This document shows positions 19,420-33,162 of a stretch of DNA of 33,206 bases, in pieces. The notes below the pieces were generated by a model that had not been told where the DNA came from, searched no databases, and worked only from the letters and a program-made list of their open reading frames with translations. A program made the translations under genes and the position numbers. Each line of letters opens with the position of its first letter. Position 1 is the stretch's first letter. This DNA is from Bifidobacterium breve. GTDB lineage: Bacteria; Actinomycetota; Actinomycetes; Nanopelagicales; Nanopelagicaceae. The stretch lies in NCBI GenBank assembly GCA_945898065.1, contig CAMDHH010000010.1:1-33206 (forward strand), written 5' to 3'.

Positions 19420-20595
19420 ATGCTCGATTTCAAAAATCCAGACTTTATTGCAAACCCTTATCCCGGGTTAGCAGAGTTGCGAGCATATGGAAAACCTATT
19501 TGGCATGACGATCTTGGACTCTTTTTAGCAGCGAAGCATCGCGATGCAAACGATGTTCTACGTAATAAGTCCCTGGGAAGAATTTATCGACCTCGTGTGC
19601 CAGAAGATGAATGGTTTGATTTTAATTGGTTACATTCAGATTCAATTTTAGATAGCGAGCCACCAAAACATACTCGTCTGCGTTCATTAGTTGCAAAAGC
19701 ATTTAACAGAGGTCGAATCGATGCACTTGCTCCTCAAATAGAAACTCTGACTCAAGAATTACTAGATCAGATTGCCCTGAAGAAGGATTTTGATGTAATC
19801 GCTGATTATGCAGAGCCTCTTCCTGTAAAAGTTATCGCTGCGCTATTAGATTTTCCAGTTGAAGATGAATACTTGTTACGTCCTTGGTCACAAGCGATTG
19901 TGAAGATGTATGAGGTAGATCCAACACAAGAGAACCAAGCGGGAGCAAGGCGCGCAGCCTCTGAATTTGCGACATATGTTCATGATTTGATGATTGCTCG
20001 AAAAAAGAAGCCTGGTGCTGACCTGATTAGCGAATTAGCGATTGTGGAAGAGGCAGGGGAGAAACTCAATGCACACGAACTAATCGCAACCTGCATTCTC
20101 TTACTCAATGCTGGGCATGAAGCAAGCGTCAATGGCTTTGGCAACGGAATTGTTGCCGCCTTTAAAGAAGAATCACAATGGGATCTTCTCAAAAAAGATC
20201 CATATGCGATTTCTACAACAGCTATTGAGGAATTTTTACGCTTTGATGCTCCTCTTCACTTCTTCGATAGAACAGCAACTGAAGATACAGAAATTGGCGG
20301 GGTAAAGATCGAAAAAGGTCAGAAGATTGTGAGCCTGCTTGGTTCTGCTAATCGCGATGAAGATGTATTTGAAAATCCAAATACTATGAATTTACTGCGA
20401 GATCCAAATCCGCATATTGGCTTTGGAGCAGGTATCCACTTCTGTCTGGGTGGACCACTAGCGCGCTTGGAGATGAATATTTCGCTTCCAGCGCTATTCT
20501 CTCGTTTCCCGAATATGCGCCTTGTCGGTGAAGCAACACGCAGGCCAACATTTTCACTACGTGGATATGAAAAGATTCCAGCGACTATCAATTGA
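19420..20595 (+). CDS. Cytochrome P450
   Basis: A 391-residue soluble bacterial P450. The heme-binding motif is FGAGIHFCLGGPLARLE with Cys342 as ligand. The I-helix has LLLNAGHEASVN (the AGxE(T/A)(S/T) oxygen-activation motif), the K-helix ExxR is EEFLR, and the C-helix region has PPKHTRLRSLVAKAF. No membrane segment is seen. It would need a ferredoxin and reductase; none is encoded nearby. The substrate is unknown. It sits between cdd and a nucleoside hydrolase with 2- and 11-base gaps, so it is part of a three-gene operon of nucleoside genes, which is unusual and may hint at a nucleoside-like or base-like substrate. That link is inference. Confidence 0.93.
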   Translation: MLDFKNPDFIANPYPGLAELRAYGKPIWHDDLGLFLAAKHRDANDVLRNKSLGRIYRPRVPEDEWFDFNWLHSDSILDSEPPKHTRLRSLVAKAFNRGRIDALAPQIETLTQELLDQIALKKDFDVIADYAEPLPVKVIAALLDFPVEDEYLLRPWSQAIVKMYEVDPTQENQAGARRAASEFATYVHDLMIARKKKPGADLISELAIVEEAGEKLNAHELIATCILLLNAGHEASVNGFGNGIVAAFKEESQWDLLKKDPYAISTTAIEEFLRFDAPLHFFDRTATEDTEIGGVKIEKGQKIVSLLGSANRDEDVFENPNTMNLLRDPNPHIGFGAGIHFCLGGPLARLEMNISLPALFSRFPNMRLVGEATRRPTFSLRGYEKIPATIN

Positions 20596-24889: not shown

Positions 24890-25828
24890 ATGTCACAAAT
24901 TCCTATCATTTTGGATTGCGATCCCGGTCATGATGATGCACTTGCCATTATTTTGGCGGCATACAATCAAAAGATTGATTTACGAGGAATTGTTACAGTT
25001 TCAGGAAATGGTGCAATCGATAAAGTTACATATAACGCCCTCAGTATTTGCACACTCGCAAAAATAAGAGTTCCAGTCGCACAAGGCTCGGGTGTTTCCA
25101 TATTGGGTTCGGCTGAAGCCGCTACTGATATCCATGGTGAGACTGCACTCGATGGAGCGCCACTACCGAAACCAAACTTCGAACTTTCTAAAGAAAGTGG
25201 CATCGAGCTCATGGCTCGATTAGTGCGTGAATCAAGTGAGCCAATCACAATCGTTGCAACTGGTCCGCTAACAAATGTTGCAATTCTTCTTAAGCTATAT
25301 CCAGAATTGAAAAGCAAAATCAAAGAGATTGTCTTTATGGGTGGCAGCGCATCGCGTGGAAACCGAACTCCATACGCTGAATTCAATATCTGGATGGATC
25401 CTGAGGCCACCGATATCGTCTTGCATTCCGGCTTGAAATTGACGATGTGTGGACTCGATGTCACTCATCAAGCCTTAGTCACCAAAGAAGTATTTGCTCG
25501 CCTTGAAGCACTAAAGAGTGATCTTTCAAAAACAATTATTGGTCTACTCACATTCTTTGCTCAAACGTATAACGATGTCTTTGAGATGCCCGATCCACCT
25601 TTGCACGACCCCGTGGCTATTGCCGTCCTTATTGACCCAAGCGTTGTATCGTCGCGATTCGTCAATGTCGAAGTTGAATTAGATGGAAAATTCACCCGCG
25701 GTGCAACGGTTGTCGATATATATAAGCGCGAGGAGCGCGCAGCCAATGCCACTGTTGCACTCGATCTTGATGCTAAGAAATTCTGGGATCTAATGATTGA
25801 TGCAATAGAGGCTGCAGGAAAGTCCTAA
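24890..25828 (+). CDS. Nucleoside hydrolase family protein 2 (canonical IunH)
   Basis: A 312-residue nucleoside hydrolase with the complete canonical active site: DCDPGHDDA at residues about 9-17, ATGPLTNVA, VFMGGSAS, AEFNIWMDPEA, and PPLHDPVAIAV with His239 and metal ligand Asp240. It hydrolyses ribonucleosides to base and ribose without phosphate; preference (pyrimidine, purine or both) cannot be read from sequence. The start has a good Shine-Dalgarno sequence, unlike most first genes here. It is a single-gene unit, divergent from deoC, and its stop interlocks with that of the convergent uridine phosphorylase (CTAA). Confidence 0.92.
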   Translation: MSQIPIILDCDPGHDDALAIILAAYNQKIDLRGIVTVSGNGAIDKVTYNALSICTLAKIRVPVAQGSGVSILGSAEAATDIHGETALDGAPLPKPNFELSKESGIELMARLVRESSEPITIVATGPLTNVAILLKLYPELKSKIKEIVFMGGSASRGNRTPYAEFNIWMDPEATDIVLHSGLKLTMCGLDVTHQALVTKEVFARLEALKSDLSKTIIGLLTFFAQTYNDVFEMPDPPLHDPVAIAVLIDPSVVSSRFVNVEVELDGKFTRGATVVDIYKREERAANATVALDLDAKKFWDLMIDAIEAAGKS

Positions 25829-26571
25829 ATCTTCCCAGCGCTTCTATCGAAGGCAATAATCTCTCGTAGTCCTTGAATTGCAGTTTCTAGAAGTGGATCG
25901 AGTGAAATTACTGGACCGATGCCATGCATCATCATGATTCCACCTGCGCGCTTTCGCAACATGGAAGAGATAACGAATATTGCAGAGGCTTCCATCTCTG
26001 AGCAGATCGCTCCCCCAATTTCCCATGCTTTCCAGCGGTCTTGAAGATTACGAGCAACGCCCATTCTCTCTGGTTCATGCTGACCATAAAAAGAATCTTT
26101 AGATTGAGTTATTCCGGTACGAAATTTTACGCCAGTCTTCTTTGCTGCGCGCTGTAGCGCTTGCGTTAGATCTAAATCTGCAACAGCAGGAAACTCAATT
26201 GGCATGTAATGAATCGATGTTCCTTCATCACGAATAGCACCTGAAATAATCGCAAGTTCGCCCGAAACGATATCTTTTTGGATTGCACCAGAAGTTCCAA
26301 CACGAATAAAAGTGTCCGCACCAACTATTGCTAATTCTTCAACTGCTATTGCAGCTGATGGGCAGCCAATTCCTGTTGAAGTTACGGATACCTTTTCACC
26401 ATCTAGATAGCCTGTGTATGTAACGTATTCACGATTAGATGCAACTAATTTTGCATCATCGAAGAGGGCAGCAATGGGTGCACATCGACCTGGATCTCCT
26501 GGAAGTAATACGTAACGACCAACATCACCCGGTGCTAATTGAACGTGATACTGCTTTCCATTGGCTTCCAT
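25825..26571 (-). CDS. udp: Uridine phosphorylase, copy 1
   Basis: A 248-residue NP-I family phosphorylase. Motifs: VLLPGDPGR (phosphate site), REYVTYTGYLDG, VTSTGIGCPSAAIAVEEL, FIRVGTSGAI, SKDSFYGQHEPERMG (base-specificity segment in uridine phosphorylases) and CSEMEASAIF (ribose-binding EMEA). It cleaves uridine, and perhaps deoxyuridine or thymidine, with phosphate. The ATG directly follows the TAA of copy 2, with no gap. It is the last gene of the importer operon. No deoA or pyn gene is in the window, so these may also handle deoxypyrimidines. Confidence 0.9.
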   Translation of the reverse strand: MEANGKQYHVQLAPGDVGRYVLLPGDPGRCAPIAALFDDAKLVASNREYVTYTGYLDGEKVSVTSTGIGCPSAAIAVEELAIVGADTFIRVGTSGAIQKDIVSGELAIISGAIRDEGTSIHYMPIEFPAVADLDLTQALQRAAKKTGVKFRTGITQSKDSFYGQHEPERMGVARNLQDRWKAWEIGGAICSEMEASAIFVISSMLRKRAGGIMMMHGIGPVISLDPLLETAIQGLREIIAFDRSAGKI

Positions 26572-27321
26572 TTATAACTCCTTGCTTAGTTGATCAGCTT
26601 TAATTAGTTCTCGAACTCCCGAAATTGCTGTTTCAATCAATGGCTCAAGTGAACCAAATGAACCCTCGCCATGCATAGCCATGATTCCTCCAGCACGAAC
26701 TTTGAGTGTTGATGCAACTATGAAAAGCGCAGCTGCCTCCATCTCGGAGCAAATTGCGCCACCAACTTGCCACGCATGCCAACGATCGAGGAGTCGACTC
26801 GTTACACCGGAGCGCTCTGGTTCAACCTCTCCGTAAAAGGAATCTTTAGATTGAGAGATGCCGAGGGAGTGTGGCAAGCCAGCTTTCTGTGCAGCGCTTC
26901 GAAGTGCAGCAACAATTTCCATATCAGCAAGTGCTGGAAATGCAATTGGTAAATAATGAATTGAAGTGCCTTCATCACGAATTGCACCTGTAACAATTGC
27001 CAAATCTCCAGATTTAGTTCCAGGTTGAATTGCACCAGATGTTCCGACTCGTATAAAAGTATCTGCGCCAACTCGTACTAATTCTTCTAGTGCTATTGCA
27101 GAAGATGGGCACCCAATTCCCGTAGAGGTAACCGAAACTTTTACTCCATCAAGAAAACCTGTGTAAGTAACATATTCGCGATTCGTAGCAACATGAACAG
27201 CGCCTTCTAAATGGCGAGCAATAACTTCGGATCTACCTGGATCACCTGGGAGTAATACATATCGACCTACATCACCTTTTTGTAATTGAATATGATATTG
27301 CTTGGAATCTAAATTGCTCAT
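26572..27321 (-). CDS. udp: Uridine phosphorylase, copy 2
   Basis: A 249-residue paralogue of the next gene, clearly similar over its whole length: VLLPGDPGR, REYVTYTGFLDG, VTSTGIGCPSSAIALEEL, FIRVGTSGAI, SKDSFYGEVEPERSG and CSEMEAAALF. The main differences lie in the base-specificity segment (GEVEPERSG against GQHEPERMG) and near the C-terminus (AMHGEGSFGS against MMHGIGPVIS). This suggests divergence of substrate range after duplication. Its ATG overlaps the upstream nucleoside hydrolase stop as ATGA. Confidence 0.9.
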   Translation of the reverse strand: MSNLDSKQYHIQLQKGDVGRYVLLPGDPGRSEVIARHLEGAVHVATNREYVTYTGFLDGVKVSVTSTGIGCPSSAIALEELVRVGADTFIRVGTSGAIQPGTKSGDLAIVTGAIRDEGTSIHYLPIAFPALADMEIVAALRSAAQKAGLPHSLGISQSKDSFYGEVEPERSGVTSRLLDRWHAWQVGGAICSEMEAAALFIVASTLKVRAGGIMAMHGEGSFGSLEPLIETAISGVRELIKADQLSKEL

Positions 27322-28244
27322 AGCGTATTTACTCTTTCAATAAAGAAATCCATGAACGCTTCAACATTTACCTTCATAGCAACCTTGCTATTTGCCGCTT
27401 TACCCGTTGCCTTAAAGTGATCCGCAGAAGTTTTTGCAACATTGTGGTCACCCTTTAATTCAACGGTAACGTGGTAATCAGCGTATTGAACCAAATCTGG
27501 TCTTATCAATATTGCAGCAGCTAAAGGATCGTTGATTGCACAGCCTTCAATGCTTTGATATTCATCATGGAATTCCATATAGAAACGAGTGGAATCATCT
27601 ATAAATTTTTGAATTGCTGGATTCTTACTTTGAATGCGATCCATATGTCTTTTCTGAAACAAGCACTCATACGTAACATCTAATGGAACCAAGGTAAATT
27701 TCAAGCCCGCTCGAATAACAACGTCAAAGGCATGCGGATCACAGAAAACGTTGTATTCCGATGATGGAGTTGCATTACCAGGGGCATGAATTGTTGCGCC
27801 CATCGAGACAACATTTTTGATCAAGGGCACAATCGATGGGTCACGCAATGTTGCAAGTGCAAGATTTGTCATGGGGCCAATACATAGCAAGGTAATCTCA
27901 CCTGGATATTTATGAACCAAATTGATGATGAGCTCAACAGCAGGCAATGTAGATAACTTCAAGACTGGCTCAGGAAGAATGGCATAACCAAGCCCACCAT
28001 CACCATGTGTCTCTTCAGCTACTGACAATGATTTCACTAACGGTTCTGATGCGCCACGTGCAATCGGGACGTTTACCAGATTGCAAAGCTCTGCAATTTG
28101 TAAGGCATTCTTTGCACATTTATCCACTGTCGTATTTCCATGTGTAACCGTTATTGCCTCTAGTGTGATTTCGGGAGATGCGGCAAGTAAGAGAATTGCA
28201 AGGGCATCATCAATGCCGGGATCGGTATCAAGTATTACTCTCAT
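27318..28244 (-). CDS. Nucleoside hydrolase family protein 3 (IunH-like)
   Basis: A 308-residue nucleoside hydrolase family protein. DTDPGIDDA, CIGPMTNLAL, VSMGATI and SEYNVFCDPHAF are present. In the C-terminal motif the canonical HDP is NDP (CAINDPLAAA): Asn238 replaces the catalytic His while metal ligand Asp239 is kept. Together with VSMGATI in place of MGGSA, this marks a different subgroup from the other two copies. It sits after a queuosine-salvage gene and before two uridine phosphorylases. From memory, the Clostridioides queuosine hydrolase QueK belongs to this superfamily, so a modified-nucleoside substrate is conceivable. Its ATG overlaps the stop of a 20-codon remnant (ATGA). Confidence 0.88.
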   Translation of the reverse strand: MRVILDTDPGIDDALAILLLAASPEITLEAITVTHGNTTVDKCAKNALQIAELCNLVNVPIARGASEPLVKSLSVAEETHGDGGLGYAILPEPVLKLSTLPAVELIINLVHKYPGEITLLCIGPMTNLALATLRDPSIVPLIKNVVSMGATIHAPGNATPSSEYNVFCDPHAFDVVIRAGLKFTLVPLDVTYECLFQKRHMDRIQSKNPAIQKFIDDSTRFYMEFHDEYQSIEGCAINDPLAAAILIRPDLVQYADYHVTVELKGDHNVAKTSADHFKATGKAANSKVAMKVNVEAFMDFFIERVNTL

Positions 28245-28303
28245 TGATCGATAAATGTACGCTCGTATGGGCTAAATAGCGGACCAGCGAAATAAATCTT
28301 CAT
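28241..28303 (-). pseudogene. 20-codon remnant resembling the start of a nucleoside 2-deoxyribosyltransferase
   Basis: Between the Qng1-like gene and nucleoside hydrolase 3, an ATG two bases after the upstream TAA opens a frame reading MKIYFAGPLFSPYERTFIDQ and then TGA. KIYxAGPLFSxxER is the characteristic N-terminus of nucleoside 2-deoxyribosyltransferase family proteins (PF05014), which are normally 140-180 residues. The TGA overlaps the hydrolase ATG as ATGA. I infer that a deletion removed the rest of the gene; the short frame may still be translated and couple translation into the hydrolase gene. Confidence 0.55.
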
Positions 28304-28305
28304 CT

Positions 28306-29295
28306 TTAGTACATCACAGTCTTTGTTAGATGGTGGGGCCAATGTGTTGCGTGATACGTCTTCCAGAAACGGAAATCAACCTGTGGTTGCAGTAGCGGCT
28401 CCATTCCAGGTCGTCGCTTATTAATCTCCTCTGTGAGTTTAGCAATAACATAAATCGAACTAGCACGCAGTTCAATCTCGGCTTCACTATCTCGCTTTAC
28501 TTCGACAAGACTATTAATCTGCTTTTCGAGTTCCGGTGCATATTCAAAAATATTCATCACGCGCAACCCAACAGGAACAATGTAGTCAGCAAAAGCGGTG
28601 AGGTTGCTAGCATCTTCTAATTTCCATGCTCCTCTTGGAGAAAGAGCAAGATGCATTCCCCAAATTCCAAGTTGGGCCAATTTATAAATCTGTACTTCTG
28701 AGCCGTGATAGTTACTCACATCACGAAAACGAGGGAACTCTGTAGTCAATCGTTCAAGCAGTCCATCACCGTTGGCATAGAGACGTGGGGTGCAAGAGCG
28801 AACAAAATTAGAGTAACGACCTTGATACTTTTCGACTAGAACACGGCCCACTTCGTTGAAAAGAACTACGCGCTCATCGAGCATAGGCATCTCTATTGTT
28901 CCCGCAAATACTAATTCCAGATCTTTACGTGAAACCTTAGATAGATATTCGCCGCTGAAGAATGGGATTCCATCGCCAATAGCACGATGCATACAGGCAA
29001 CCATTGCTTCTGAGTCACACCAGCGCTTGCCAATGTAATCTGTCTCAAATTTCACACCGGTAGAGAAATCTGTAAAAGCAAAGTTCATTGTGTTTACAAC
29101 CAAGGTGAAATCCATCAAGAGATCTGGATCATTACCAAAGTCAAAAAGCATCGAACCATCTGGTTTGGCAAACTCTTCGTATGCCATCCAATTTGCTACT
29201 TGCGTGATCTTCTCGTGATTGATTCGAACTAGCTGTGCATTACTTATTACAGGTTGCAGGCTTGCCAAGACAGGAGAATCCCAGTTGATTGTCAT
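28306..29295 (-). CDS. Queuosine salvage protein, DUF2419/Qng1-like
   Basis: A 329-residue protein of the DUF2419 (queuosine 5'-phosphate N-glycosylase, Qng1/C9orf64) family, recognised by several blocks shared with the eukaryotic proteins: MPMLDERVVLFNEVGRVLVE (residues about 135-155), FPRFRDVSNYHG, IYKLAQL, FADYIVP with Asp237 as a likely key residue, EIELRASSIY and the C-terminal HHLTKTVMY. Characterised members release queuine from queuosine 5'-monophosphate. The ATG at 29295 lies 14 bases after the permease stop. It is in an ABC nucleoside importer operon and followed by a nucleoside hydrolase. No tgt or queuosine-synthesis gene is in the window, so the substrate could be another modified nucleoside. 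Confidence 0.85.
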   Translation of the reverse strand: MTINWDSPVLASLQPVISNAQLVRINHEKITQVANWMAYEEFAKPDGSMLFDFGNDPDLLMDFTLVVNTMNFAFTDFSTGVKFETDYIGKRWCDSEAMVACMHRAIGDGIPFFSGEYLSKVSRKDLELVFAGTIEMPMLDERVVLFNEVGRVLVEKYQGRYSNFVRSCTPRLYANGDGLLERLTTEFPRFRDVSNYHGSEVQIYKLAQLGIWGMHLALSPRGAWKLEDASNLTAFADYIVPVGLRVMNIFEYAPELEKQINSLVEVKRDSEAEIELRASSIYVIAKLTEEINKRRPGMEPLLQPQVDFRFWKTYHATHWPHHLTKTVMY

Positions 29296-29309
29296 ATCAA
29301 AAAATTCCC

Positions 29310-30560
29310 TTACTCAGAGCCGCGGCGATAAGGCATACCTGCCATGGCAGGCGGTGTTAGTCGCTGGGCCAGGAAGGTAAGAACTATCAACGTTGCAAAG
29401 TTAGGGAAAACTGTTACAAACTCTTGAGGAATGACATCAACACGTTGATGAATCCAAAAAGCTACAAGAGCAAGTACGGCCGATATAGCGCCTGGCTTCC
29501 ATTGGCGCGACACTGAATAGTAGAGAGCAAGAACAGTTGCAATAATTCCTGCAACCATAATGAGTGACATCACTGATTCGCTTTGGCGAACTCGAAGAGC
29601 ATCGGTAAATCCGAAAAGAATTGAGCCAGCGAATACTCCACCAGGTCTCCAGTTACCAAAGATCACAGTGGCCAGACCAATAAAACCTCGGCCAGCAGTT
29701 TGACCTTCTCTGTATACAGAAGAGGCGACGAGTGAAAGATAAGCGCCACCAAGGGATGCCAACATGCCTGAGACCGAGATTGCAATGTATCGAATTCGAT
29801 AGACATTAATACCAAGAGATTCGGCAGCCATAGGATTTTCTCCCGAGAAGCGCATGCGAAGTCCAAATTTGCTACGCCAAAGAATCCACGAAGTCAGTGG
29901 AACAAGAAGTAATAGCGCCATGGTTACTAATGAAACATCTTTAGTCAATCCGTGAAACACTCCAGCTAAGTTTGAAATAAAGAAAATGTTCTTTGCATCG
30001 ATGCTTTCTAAGAACGGTGCAATCACAGGAATAGTAAAAGTTGGAAATGAATCGACAGGTGGCGAGACGGTTCTGTCTCCACCAACTGGTGGGAAAAATA
30101 TTCCTGATAAATATCTAGCACCACCTGCTGCAATGAGATTTATCGCAAGGCCTGAGACTGCTTGATCAATTCCAATTTTTACTGTTAGAACTGCGTGGAA
30201 GAAACCTGATGCAAGACCGAAAATTGCCGCAGCCACAAAGCCAACCAATGGCCCATGGAGGTATCCAAACCAAGCAGCAGTCCAGGTTCCAACAATCATC
30301 ATTCCTTCAAGGCCGATGTTGATCACACCTGCTCGTTCAGCCCACAATCCACCTAAACCAGCCATAAGAAGTGGAATAGCAAAACGAAGAGTTGCTCCAG
30401 AGGTTCCAGGTGATGAAATATCTGTGGCTCCAGTCAAGCTTTCGACTAGCGAAATGATAAAAAATATACCGGCAACAACTAAAGTGATACGGGCCGGGGA
30501 TTTGAAGAATGTTTTCACTTTGCCTGTGCTTGTCGCAGCCTTCTTTGCATCGGTAGCCAT
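29310..30560 (-). CDS. Nucleoside-type ABC importer, permease subunit 2
   Basis: A 416-residue permease of the BPD_transp_2 (RbsC/branched-chain-like) family with about ten hydrophobic segments. Recognisable segments are GGLWAERAGVINIGLEGMM and GENPMAAESLGI, typical of the guanosine/nucleoside and BMP-linked importers (NupC/YufQ type). It pairs with the other permease to form the membrane channel. The ATG overlaps the preceding permease stop by one base (TAATG). Nucleoside specificity is inferred from family and neighbours. Confidence 0.9.
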   Translation of the reverse strand: MATDAKKAATSTGKVKTFFKSPARITLVVAGIFFIISLVESLTGATDISSPGTSGATLRFAIPLLMAGLGGLWAERAGVINIGLEGMMIVGTWTAAWFGYLHGPLVGFVAAAIFGLASGFFHAVLTVKIGIDQAVSGLAINLIAAGGARYLSGIFFPPVGGDRTVSPPVDSFPTFTIPVIAPFLESIDAKNIFFISNLAGVFHGLTKDVSLVTMALLLLVPLTSWILWRSKFGLRMRFSGENPMAAESLGINVYRIRYIAISVSGMLASLGGAYLSLVASSVYREGQTAGRGFIGLATVIFGNWRPGGVFAGSILFGFTDALRVRQSESVMSLIMVAGIIATVLALYYSVSRQWKPGAISAVLALVAFWIHQRVDVIPQEFVTVFPNFATLIVLTFLAQRLTPPAMAGMPYRRGSE

Positions 30561-31651
30561 TACTTGGACTCCTTATCAATAACAAGTTCGGCATTGACTT
30601 TACCGACCGCACGTTGCTGTTGACGAAGATTGATTCGTGCGACAACTTCATAGGCAATAACAATTGCAAGAACGATTGTTCCCTGCATGACAATCACAAT
30701 TTCAGGCGGTACGCCTTCGTATTCCAGAACAGGTGCAGCTCGTTCAAGGAATGACCACAGGAAGGCGGCAAAGAAGATTCCCACTGGATGATTTCTGCCA
30801 AGTAGTGCCAGGGCTAAACCAGTGAATGCATAGCCAGATGGAAATGCCATGCTGTAGGAGTGTGTATCCGAGAGAAGCGTTCCGATACCAACTAATCCAG
30901 CAATAGCGCCTGATAAAACAGTTGTTACAAAGATCATTCCCGGTGCGTTGACGCCACTTGATCGCGCGGCACGGAAAGATAATCCAGTTGCTCGTAAGTT
31001 GAATCCAAAGACTGTCTTATTGAGCATTACCCAGTAAGCAATTCCTACAAAAATAGCAACAAAGAGGAAGGAATAGACTTCACCATTGAACATCTTAAAT
31101 GTTGGCATCTGACCACTTACTGGTATGGGTCTGGTCTGAACATTCTGAGATCCCTCAGGAAGAATTCCTAAGAGTTCCTCGCCTAACAAAAATGCAATGA
31201 TCGCTGCTGCAATAAAGTTGAGCATAATATTACTGATTACTTCAGATACCCCACGTCGCACCTTGAGATATCCAGCGATAGCAGCCCATAGGCCACCGGC
31301 AATCATTGCCACAACAACAATAAGTAATACATGCAATACCGGCGGAAGATTAACTGCCGCACCTACTACTGCTCCAAAAAATGCGCCCATGCGATATTGG
31401 CCATCGATTCCAATATTGAAAAGCAACATCTTAAATCCGATTGCCGCTGCAACGCCTGCTAAATAATATGCAACAGTCTGATTGAGTTCAGAGACCAAGT
31501 TACGTGGACTAAATCCATAGGAAATCATTACTTTGAATATTTCTAGAGGGTTTACTCCACGAAGAATCAAGATGAGGGAAACTAATAGAAGTGAGCTGAG
31601 TATTGCTGCAAGTGGGGCGATTGCTCCCCAAAAAACTCTATTTTTTCTCAT
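30560..31651 (-). CDS. Nucleoside-type ABC importer, permease subunit 1
   Basis: A 363-residue BPD_transp_2 family permease (NupB/YufP type). It has an N-terminal helix, then AAAIGFKMLLFNIGIDGQY, the family segment, and later LRATGLSFRAARSSGVN, the cytoplasmic loop that contacts the ATPase, and about nine more hydrophobic segments. Its ATG overlaps the ATPase stop by four bases (ATGA) and the next permease overlaps it by one, indicating tight translational coupling. Confidence 0.9.
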   Translation of the reverse strand: MRKNRVFWGAIAPLAAILSSLLLVSLILILRGVNPLEIFKVMISYGFSPRNLVSELNQTVAYYLAGVAAAIGFKMLLFNIGIDGQYRMGAFFGAVVGAAVNLPPVLHVLLIVVVAMIAGGLWAAIAGYLKVRRGVSEVISNIMLNFIAAAIIAFLLGEELLGILPEGSQNVQTRPIPVSGQMPTFKMFNGEVYSFLFVAIFVGIAYWVMLNKTVFGFNLRATGLSFRAARSSGVNAPGMIFVTTVLSGAIAGLVGIGTLLSDTHSYSMAFPSGYAFTGLALALLGRNHPVGIFFAAFLWSFLERAAPVLEYEGVPPEIVIVMQGTIVLAIVIAYEVVARINLRQQQRAVGKVNAELVIDKESK

Positions 31652-33162
31652 GCACTCTTTGCTCCAGTCATAGCTAGCCCAAGATCTTCTGGAGAGGTAT
31701 TCAATGGATTAAGTATTGAAACAATACTTCCACTGTAAATAACAGCAATGCGATCTGAGAGCGAGAAGAGTTCTTCTAGATCAGCGGAGATGAGCAGAAT
31801 GCCAACCCCGTGTGATCGCGCCTTCATCAAGTGATCCCAGATGATTGCTTGGGCGCCAACATCGACTCCACGAGTAGGTTGCGCTGCAACGATTAATTTT
31901 GGATCACCACTTAATTCTCGACCTACAATAAATTTCTGTTGGTTTCCACCTGAGAGAGCGCTAGCTAATACATTGACTCCAGGTGTTCTTACATCAAATT
32001 CTTCTACGACTCGTTTGGAATCTTCTGCGGCTGCACCTTTATTGACCCAAATTCCATTTGCCATAGGGGTTGCAAATTGGTGACCTAGAATTCGATTTTC
32101 CCAGAGTGGTGCTGACATTAAGAGTCCGTCACGTTGACGATCTTGTGGAATGTAGGCAACACCTGCATTGCGTATATCTCTTGTGTGGGTGTGTGCAGCA
32201 TCTAGCCCTAGTACTTCCACACTTCCAGTTGTCGGTGAAAGTAGACCCATGATTAACTCAATAAGTTCGCTCTGACCATTACCTTCAACGCCAGCTAGAC
32301 CAAGAATTTCTCCACCGTGAAGATCAAGATTGAGATCATGAAGAATTTCTCTTCCGTCAAGGCGAGAATATGAAGCCTCTTTGATTGAAAGAATGCTCGT
32401 CTTACTTATATTTTGAACACCAGCAATTGGCTTAGGTAACTCTCCGCCAACCATCAGCTCTGCAAGTTCCTTCTTATTGGTATCAGCAGGCTTTTTGGTT
32501 ACAACAGTTGTGCCTTGACGCATAATTGTGATGTCATCTGCAATGGAAAGTACTTCATCTAACTTATGTGAAATAAAGAGAACTGTAAGGCCCTTATTCA
32601 CTAAATCTCTGAGGTTTTCAAAAAGCTCTGTAACCTCTTGTGGAACCAATACTGCTGTGGGCTCATCGAGGATGAGAATCTTCGCTCCTCGGAATAATAC
32701 TTTTGCAATCTCAACTCTTTGACGCTCTCCCACGCCTAAATTCGAAAGTGATTCATCAGGATCTATATCTAAGTGATAAGTCTCAGCAATTTCGAGTAAT
32801 TTCTTGCGAGCTTCATCATATTTTATGACAAAGCCAAAACAGGATGGTTCGCTACCCAAAATTACATTCTCTAAAACTGTAGCGTTATCGGCTAATTTGA
32901 AGTGCTGGTGAACCATACCGATACCAAGTGCGATTGCATCTTGCGGAGATTTCAGCGAAACTTCTTGACCAAATACTTTAATGGAACCGGCATCAGGGCG
33001 AATCAAACCGTAGAGAGTCTTCATCAGCGTTGACTTTCCAGCACCGTTTTCACCGATTATGGCGTGTATAGAGCCTTCACGTACTTGGAGTGATACATCA
33101 CGGTTTGCGACTACACCAGGATATTTCTTTTCAACTCCTACTACTTCCAGGATATTTCCCAC
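31648..33162 (-). CDS. Nucleoside-type ABC importer, dual ATP-binding subunit
   Basis: A 504-residue fused double ATPase of the RbsA/NupA/YufO type. Domain 1 (about 1-235): Walker A GENGAGKST, signature LGVGERQRVEI, Walker B ILILDEPTAVL. Domain 2 (about 255-500): degenerate Walker A GVEGNGQSE, signature LSGGNQQKF, then IVAAQPTRGVDVGA. Degeneracy of the second Walker A is normal in this family. The start is GTG at 33162, which follows a weak GAAAGAAG. A BMP-family substrate-binding lipoprotein usually precedes this gene and is presumably beyond the right edge. Confidence 0.92.
   Translation of the reverse strand: MGNILEVVGVEKKYPGVVANRDVSLQVREGSIHAIIGENGAGKSTLMKTLYGLIRPDAGSIKVFGQEVSLKSPQDAIALGIGMVHQHFKLADNATVLENVILGSEPSCFGFVIKYDEARKKLLEIAETYHLDIDPDESLSNLGVGERQRVEIAKVLFRGAKILILDEPTAVLVPQEVTELFENLRDLVNKGLTVLFISHKLDEVLSIADDITIMRQGTTVVTKKPADTNKKELAELMVGGELPKPIAGVQNISKTSILSIKEASYSRLDGREILHDLNLDLHGGEILGLAGVEGNGQSELIELIMGLLSPTTGSVEVLGLDAAHTHTRDIRNAGVAYIPQDRQRDGLLMSAPLWENRILGHQFATPMANGIWVNKGAAAEDSKRVVEEFDVRTPGVNVLASALSGGNQQKFIVGRELSGDPKLIVAAQPTRGVDVGAQAIIWDHLMKARSHGVGILLISADLEELFSLSDRIAVIYSGSIVSILNPLNTSPEDLGLAMTGAKSA

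Follow-up and report, generated by a model that had tools for sequence, protein, structure and literature searches.

A DUF2419 protein coupled to a nucleoside ABC importer in an acI actinobacterium: a possible unit for salvage of queuosine or another modified nucleoside

Results

Gene organization of the locus

The stretch of DNA analysed here (the window) is the whole 33,206-nucleotide contig CAMDHH010000010.1 (C10) of assembly GCA_945898065.1, which is 85% complete and amounts to 1.39 Mb in 77 contigs. The subject of this paper is a DUF2419 protein related to Qng1, the queuosine-5'-monophosphate hydrolase that releases queuine, a vitamin-like base of tRNA, and the Bmp/PnrA-type ATP-binding cassette (ABC) importer for nucleosides whose genes lie beside it (Table 1). 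The initial annotation had described an importer ATPase, two permeases, DUF2419, a nucleoside hydrolase (hydrolase 3) and a uridine phosphorylase (phosphorylase 1) as lying on one strand with overlaps or short gaps, and this was confirmed on the minus strand with strong Pfam matches for all six. The spacings from the ATPase through permease A, permease B, DUF2419 and hydrolase 3 to phosphorylase 1 are -4, -1, +14, +61 and -4 bases. The contig ends 44 bases beyond the ATPase start, so the Bmp gene, which precedes the ATPase gene in relatives, and their divergent ribokinase gene would fall outside the window.

The DUF2419 protein is 79-86% identical to those of relatives named Candidatus Planktophila or Candidatus Nanopelagicaceae, and the host is therefore read as an acI actinobacterium of the family Nanopelagicaceae. 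The acI actinobacteria are a widespread freshwater lineage. The nearest DUF2419 sequences (96% identity) come from two records titled 'Bifidobacterium breve', L118 (CAMCCH010000015.1) and L119 (CAMBGL010000028.1); these titles look mislabelled, and genomes G231 and G229 are placed in the window's genus.

Table 1. Importer, DUF2419 and adjoining genes of the window
Feature	Position	Strand	Support
ATPase with two ABC domains, Bmp/PnrA-type nucleoside importer	31648..33162	-	Pfam ABC_tran 171.6 bits, two stretches
Permease A of the importer	30560..31651	-	BPD_transp_2 125.8 bits
Permease B of the importer, immediately before the DUF2419 gene	29310..30560	-	BPD_transp_2 115.8 bits
DUF2419 / Q_salvage (PF10343) protein, divergent clade	28306..29295	-	197.7 bits, cut-off 25
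Remnant (20 codons) of a PF05014 (nucleoside 2-deoxyribosyltransferase-like) gene	28241..28303	-	Junction shared with L048; gene intact in L051
IunH-family nucleoside hydrolase (hydrolase 3, NH3)	27318..28244	-	IU_nuc_hydro 314.8 bits
Uridine-phosphorylase-like protein 1 (UDP1)	26572..27321	-	PNP_UDP_1 127.4 bits; TIGR01718 264.3, cut-off 280.3
Uridine-phosphorylase-like protein 2 (UDP2)	25825..26571	-	PNP_UDP_1 128.6 bits; TIGR01718 266.2, cut-off 280.3

Co-occurrence of the importer and DUF2419

DUF2419 was found in 28 of the 296 genomes of the order Nanopelagicales. Permease A matches were collected to E<=1e-40 with at most six candidates scored per genome, and orthologues (61-100% identity) were found in 27 genomes, all of them among these 28. 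None was found in the other 268, in which the best match reached 48%. In the 28th DUF2419-bearing genome, G229, a contig end falls inside permease B (L048). Permease B lies immediately before DUF2419 in all 27 evaluable loci, and so the gene arrangement in the window is not due to chance. Moreover, all 16 loci having at least 7 kb upstream carry a Bmp gene (PF02608, 185.5 bits in L042) and a divergent ribokinase gene, and 10 of them a gene for a LacI-type regulator.

Pairwise sequence identities of Bmp, the ATPase and both permeases follow those of DUF2419 with r of 0.79-0.85, whereas the importer genes reach 0.20-0.60 against NH3, UDP1, UDP2, NHa, DeoC and ALDH1; these correlations are taken among related sequences and are not independent tests. 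DUF2419 correlates with the same six genes at 0.36-0.53, and the six among themselves at 0.71-0.90. Because of the co-occurrence (27/28 versus 0/268) and the identity correlation, the real unit is, on these comparisons, the importer plus DUF2419, and it is recurrent. The coupling of DUF2419 to a nucleoside-type importer, proposed from the window alone, is thus borne out in relatives. Hydrolase 3 and phosphorylase 1 had been counted in the same unit, and their membership appears weakened because their identities track the other gene block (for hydrolase 3, r is 0.32-0.53 against importer genes and 0.53 against DUF2419).

A permease A paralogue of 44-48% identity occurs in 56 genomes, all of them lacking DUF2419. 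The operon was opened in 12 of these 56, and it was a Bmp-ATPase-permease-permease operon with no DUF2419 nearby in 12/12; the one in L090, checked with Pfam, continues with cytidine deaminase, pyrimidine nucleoside phosphorylase and adenosine deaminase. One loop of Bmp reads PGFNQ in 16/16 DUF2419 operons versus DKSFND in 12/12 of the ordinary paralogues. In BmpD and PnrA, loop 2 flanks the purine (PMC7093131). The changed loop is provisionally taken as loop 2, and if this is right, a different base is plausible.

A separate clade with the Qng1 fold

The window DUF2419 protein matched S. thermophilus Qng1 (E=1.4e-45) and human Qng1 (3e-26) in the PDB. Its AlphaFold2 model (predicted local distance difference test, pLDDT, 94.8) matched nine S. 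thermophilus Qng1 chains with query-normalised template modelling (TM) scores of 0.86-0.89 (E 9e-22 to 1.4e-20); as modelled, the protein has the Qng1 fold. Lys199 and Asp231 of the S. thermophilus enzyme, which were mutated in 7u5a and 7ulc (K199C and D231N in PDB titles), correspond to K205 and D237, and both are retained in 45/45 aligned clade members. D298 and W302, described as Qng1 active-site residues (PMC11592518), correspond to D307 and W311 of the window, and W311 is found in 44/44 of the clade members that have a residue at this position. The first description of the protein as Qng1-like therefore stands, with the fold and the known catalytic residues present and none of the active-site Lys, Asp and D/W lost.

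To build the tree, one genome per species was scanned and the best 80 of 349 relatives were taken; 12 further loci came from a phylum search, which gave a match in 16/396 genomes, 13 of them over the cut-off. In the tree of 92 rows, rooted for drawing only, the window protein falls in a 43-row group with branch support of 100/100, and the S. thermophilus enzyme lies outside. Beyond Nanopelagicales, this clade includes Acidobacteriota, Chloroflexota and other Actinomycetota. Its nearest canonical neighbours are 14 rows from candidate-phylum bacteria and archaea, with which it is grouped at 100/99, and the canonical rows taken together are not a single clade. A third DUF2419 group of nine rows is separate at 100/100. 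The annotation 'Queuosine salvage protein' spans at least three sequence types, and the solved structures returned by our fold and sequence searches, from S. thermophilus and human, are both of the canonical type.

We compared 45 clade rows with 41 canonical rows at positions conserved in at least 93% of canonical members. The canonical W75, G94, R206, K239, Q315 and Y321 (window numbering) are replaced by T, D, L, I, H and H in the window clade, where the canonical residue was found in 0, 0, 1, 0, 0 and 0 members, respectively. R206L and K239I, next to the catalytic K205 and D237, each take away a positive charge, and we infer that R206 and K239 bind phosphate in canonical Qng1. We propose that the DUF2419 gene product may be a free-nucleoside N-ribosyl hydrolase.

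DUF2419 of other hosts was also observed. The third clade (L198, L201, L203-L209), from other Actinomycetota, carries the motifs NFGSGWFP and ADNLVPH; its f43 hosts are without queA in 7/7 cases and have a tRNA-guanine transglycosylase (TGT) with the motif GG-SLG, and its two f45 hosts have queA. In an Acidobacteria record, the DUF2419 frame (L155 1514-2752) gives a weak match to a twin-arginine translocation (Tat) signal (20.7 bits, cut-off 22.7) and has an outer-membrane barrel gene nearby, and so this enzyme may be periplasmic.

Linkage to ribokinase

Fifteen loci of the window clade are importer-free, namely 12 from outside Nanopelagicales and three from Nanopelagicales-like records. A ribokinase homologue is present in 10/15 of them (7/12 outside Nanopelagicales) and an IunH homologue in 5/15 (5/12 outside), versus none of either in 39 canonical and nine third-type DUF2419 loci (Fisher 2e-8 for ribokinase in 10/15 versus 0/48, uncorrected for kinship). 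In eight of the ten loci the kinase is encoded on the other strand and lies immediately upstream of DUF2419, as judged by position with mechanical frame starts. There are exceptions: in L158 every marker sought is absent, and L150 has only MFS (major facilitator superfamily) and phosphorylase homologues; the canonical locus L173 has a PF05014 homologue.

A PfkB-family kinase supplying a 5'-monophosphate for DUF2419 was considered and rejected, since the ribokinase model TIGR02152 is the best NCBIfam model in 8/8 kinases. It gives 285-339 bits in seven of them (three over the cut-off of 299.65) and 158 bits in L154, and the nucleoside-kinase models score far below it. Similarly, the best PDB matches of the L045 kinase are ribokinases.

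The substrate of ribokinase is free ribose, and hydrolysis of queuosine 5'-monophosphate would yield ribose 5-phosphate. Therefore, the clade is most simply read as cleaving an unphosphorylated nucleoside: the linkage suggests free ribose as the product, hence a nucleoside rather than its 5'-phosphate as the substrate. Judged from these gene neighbourhoods, hydrolysis of the nucleoside is somewhat probable, and the 5'-phosphate, which the initial annotation had named from characterised Qng1 proteins, is disfavoured as the type of substrate.

Queuine economy of the order

The initial annotation had proposed looking for tgt, the gene of TGT, elsewhere in the genome. It was not found in the window's own 85%-complete assembly, but it is present in 260/296 genomes of the order (103/108 good ones) and in 23/28 DUF2419-bearing genomes (10/10 good ones). 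The absence could be taken to mean that queuine is irrelevant here; this was rejected, as the counts across the order indicate a gap in the assembly. Of the biosynthetic genes, queA was found in 0/50 genomes of the order searched (9/14 controls matched), and queF exceeded the cut-off in 0/50, with three matches below it (8/14 controls matched, seven over the cut-off); we take these three to be probably FolE. The transporter gene QPTR was found in 2/50, one of them DUF2419-bearing.

All 27 aligned Nanopelagicaceae TGTs read GG---A[LIF]DK where the Z. mobilis enzyme reads GGLAVGE, so that the preQ1 pocket is three residues short (the gap placement is that of MAFFT) and nothing is aligned to Val233. 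Val233 of Z. mobilis TGT is a hindrance to queuine, and the human enzyme has Gly at this position (PMC3660597, PMC6165067). With tgt present and queA absent in the relatives searched, and with a TGT without Val233, the order would be expected to need ready-made queuine. Queuine salvage has also been predicted for most gut Actinomycetota (PMC11130926). As a separate observation, the GG---ALDK of the short-pocket TGT loci (L030, L064-L089, L224, L226, L233) is unlike both published motif types.

Neighbouring genes and the rest of the window

Most of the PF05014 remnant falls within the 61 bases between DUF2419 and hydrolase 3. The remnant consists of the gene's first codons, 20 in all, and has a stop that overlaps the hydrolase 3 start (ATGA); the L048 junction is identical, and L051, with the intact gene, is a close relative. 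Among the 26 evaluable loci, that is, those with a readable downstream side, the PF05014 gene is present in 22 and absent in four, and the MFS gene is absent in two; because of these losses, both genes look dispensable. Their identities are intermediate (r 0.64 against DUF2419 for PF05014; 0.81 against DUF2419 and 0.85 against DeoC for MFS). It was also observed that PF05014 adjoins DUF2419 in both orientations (22/26 of L034-L061, and also L126, L133 and L135), and this kept adjacency suggests a functional tie between them. The closest PDB match of hydrolase 3 is RihA, and phosphorylases 1 and 2 are abutting paralogues with a 0-base gap, both under the TIGR01718 cut-off.

The window as a whole is a nucleoside-catabolism island. 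Besides the two uridine-phosphorylase-like proteins, it encodes a PNP_UDP_1 phosphorylase, a phosphoglucomutase-family protein, adenosine deaminase, cytidine deaminase, cytochrome P450, three IunH hydrolases, two aldehyde dehydrogenases and DeoC. The cytochrome P450 gene lies amid the nucleoside genes (19420-20595); such a gene is also found in a relative's ordinary nucleoside operon (L090 4707-5891) and close to DUF2419 in a Chloroflexi record (L150 2875-4128). Rfam gave no match at the gathering score in the window, and therefore no preQ1 riboswitch. Promoter-like sites in the window are fewer than in shuffles (7 versus 16.8), and terminator-like sites are near the shuffle level (9 versus 7.0).

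Discussion

We tentatively propose that the importer and DUF2419 together take up and hydrolyse a modified purine-type ribonucleoside, with queuosine as the most likely single substrate. The Bmp-type ABC importer would bring the free nucleoside into the cell, DUF2419 would cut the N-glycosidic bond directly to give the base and free ribose, and the divergent ribokinase, off the contig here and seen in relatives, would recover the ribose. Queuine released from queuosine would then go to the order's TGT, which is without the hindering Val233 segment, in cells with no QueA to finish preQ1. The parts of this proposal differ in strength: from the sequence comparisons, a 7-deazaguanine base is slightly favoured, and queuosine itself is a candidate that we put forward with reserve. 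A further-reaching reading is rather doubtful, namely that a new Qng1-superfamily clade acts on free nucleosides in place of 5'-monophosphates, goes together with ribokinase in both Actinomycetota and Acidobacteriota, and in acI has come to stand behind an ABC importer of its own. For the initial idea of a queuosine salvage unit, the presence of tgt without queA or queF over the cut-off (50 genomes searched) is favourable, while the separation of the clade from the characterised enzyme and its fixed changes are not. The same annotation had allowed for another modified nucleoside as the substrate, and we agree; queuosine leads but is unproven.

Several observations weigh against queuosine. Val233Gly, alone or with Cys158Val, gave no queuine insertion by Z. 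mobilis TGT (PMC3660597, PMC6165067), and in 27/27 cases the Nanopelagicaceae motif departs from the published queuine-type motif GG[LS][AS]G (PMC11570991). DUF2419 is lacking in 268/296 genomes while tgt is present in 260/296, and therefore it is not required for TGT. Outside Nanopelagicales, 10/12 clade hosts have queA, and a TGT match was found in 8/12, of preQ1-type in 8/8, so these hosts would gain little from queuine and the queuine argument for the clade is weakened. One clade host, G553, is 97% complete and without a TGT match. In addition, a ureide permease from Acidobacteriota whose gene adjoins qng1 was reported to import preQ0/preQ1 but no queuosine (PMC11130926), and a ureide permease gene, perhaps for the same protein, lies in the clade's Acidobacteria DUF2419 cluster L153. 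However, two Sphaerobacter genomes hosting canonical DUF2419 likewise have queA and GGLSVGE, and so the genotype of the outside hosts does not exclude Qng1 function.

The outside hosts and the L153 permease would fit a clade that has been repurposed to cleave some other modified or minor nucleoside mainly for its ribose and base, unrelated to queuine for TGT. A nucleoside of preQ0/preQ1, another 7-deazapurine or a damaged purine nucleoside would be examples, and we regard such a change of substrate as a serious possibility, if not a probable one. It would also account for the fixed changes from canonical Qng1 close to the catalytic residues, the ribokinase and IunH neighbours and the changed Bmp loop. 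The retained catalytic Lys/Asp and active-site D/W argue against it, as does the Nanopelagicaceae genotype, which should need queuine.

Alternatively, the importer may handle nucleosides in general and stand in for the ordinary Bmp-ATPase-permease-permease operon that relatives have, with DUF2419 merely carried along. At the E-value limit given above, each DUF2419-bearing genome has one permease A homologue (two complementary pieces in G266), and the paralogue was seen only in DUF2419-lacking genomes, within the candidates scored; moreover, both kinds of operon have aldehyde dehydrogenase genes of one kind nearby and sit amid general nucleoside genes. Such a replacement is nevertheless unlikely, because DUF2419 is present in every genome with an importer orthologue (27/27), while PF05014 and MFS were lost from some loci, and because the binding-protein loop is changed. 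An ordinary Qng1, acting on the queuosine 5'-monophosphate that comes from turnover of the cell's own tRNA and sharing the operon only as nucleotide salvage, would agree with the fold and catalytic residues of the S. thermophilus enzyme, deposited with queuosine-5'-monophosphate (7u91), and with the Sphaerobacter hosts, whose genotype does not separate the clades, but it is quite improbable given the separate clade, the two lost positive charges, the absence of ribokinase from all 39 canonical loci and the strict tie to the importer within the order.

The proposed queuosine unit resembles several known systems in part. With Qng1, the window protein shares the fold, the catalytic Lys/Asp and the active-site D/W pair; it differs in its separate clade (100/100), six changed positions and importer and ribokinase neighbours. 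A Bmp (in relatives), a two-domain ATPase and two BPD_transp_2 permeases are common to Bmp/PnrA-type importers, but the ordinary one has DKSFND and, in L090, nucleoside-catabolism genes, whereas the one here has PGFNQ and is tied to DUF2419. QueK of the IunH superfamily, acting with QueL, likewise would free queuine from imported queuosine (PMC11130926, PMC11570991); its protein family is unrelated to DUF2419 (PMC11130926), and hydrolase 3, an IunH protein itself, tracks another gene block. Direct queuine salvage of the Chlamydia type shares tgt without queA, as in the relatives, and no residue at Val233, but differs in the motif (GG[LS][AS]G versus GG---ALDK) and in the transporter, as QPTR is rare in the order (2/50).

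Among the matches listed in our literature search, judged by title or the start of the abstract, no description of an importer-DUF2419 unit was found, and a search for acI or Planktophila with queuosine found no relevant paper. Queuosine-precursor transporters are unknown in many gut species that should need them, and the ABC family is among the untested transporter candidates listed in PMC11130926. The unit described here supplies an importer, a binding protein and a hydrolase that can be named as candidates for queuosine salvage, and it puts acI among the bacteria that probably depend on queuine. Caution is needed with the annotation 'Queuosine salvage protein', as it covers several sequence types. 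If the further-reaching reading of a free-nucleoside clade behind its own importer is true, this would be the first known ABC-type unit for uptake of queuosine (or 7-deazaguanosine) and release of its base, and it would feed a TGT that has a new queuine-accepting pocket.

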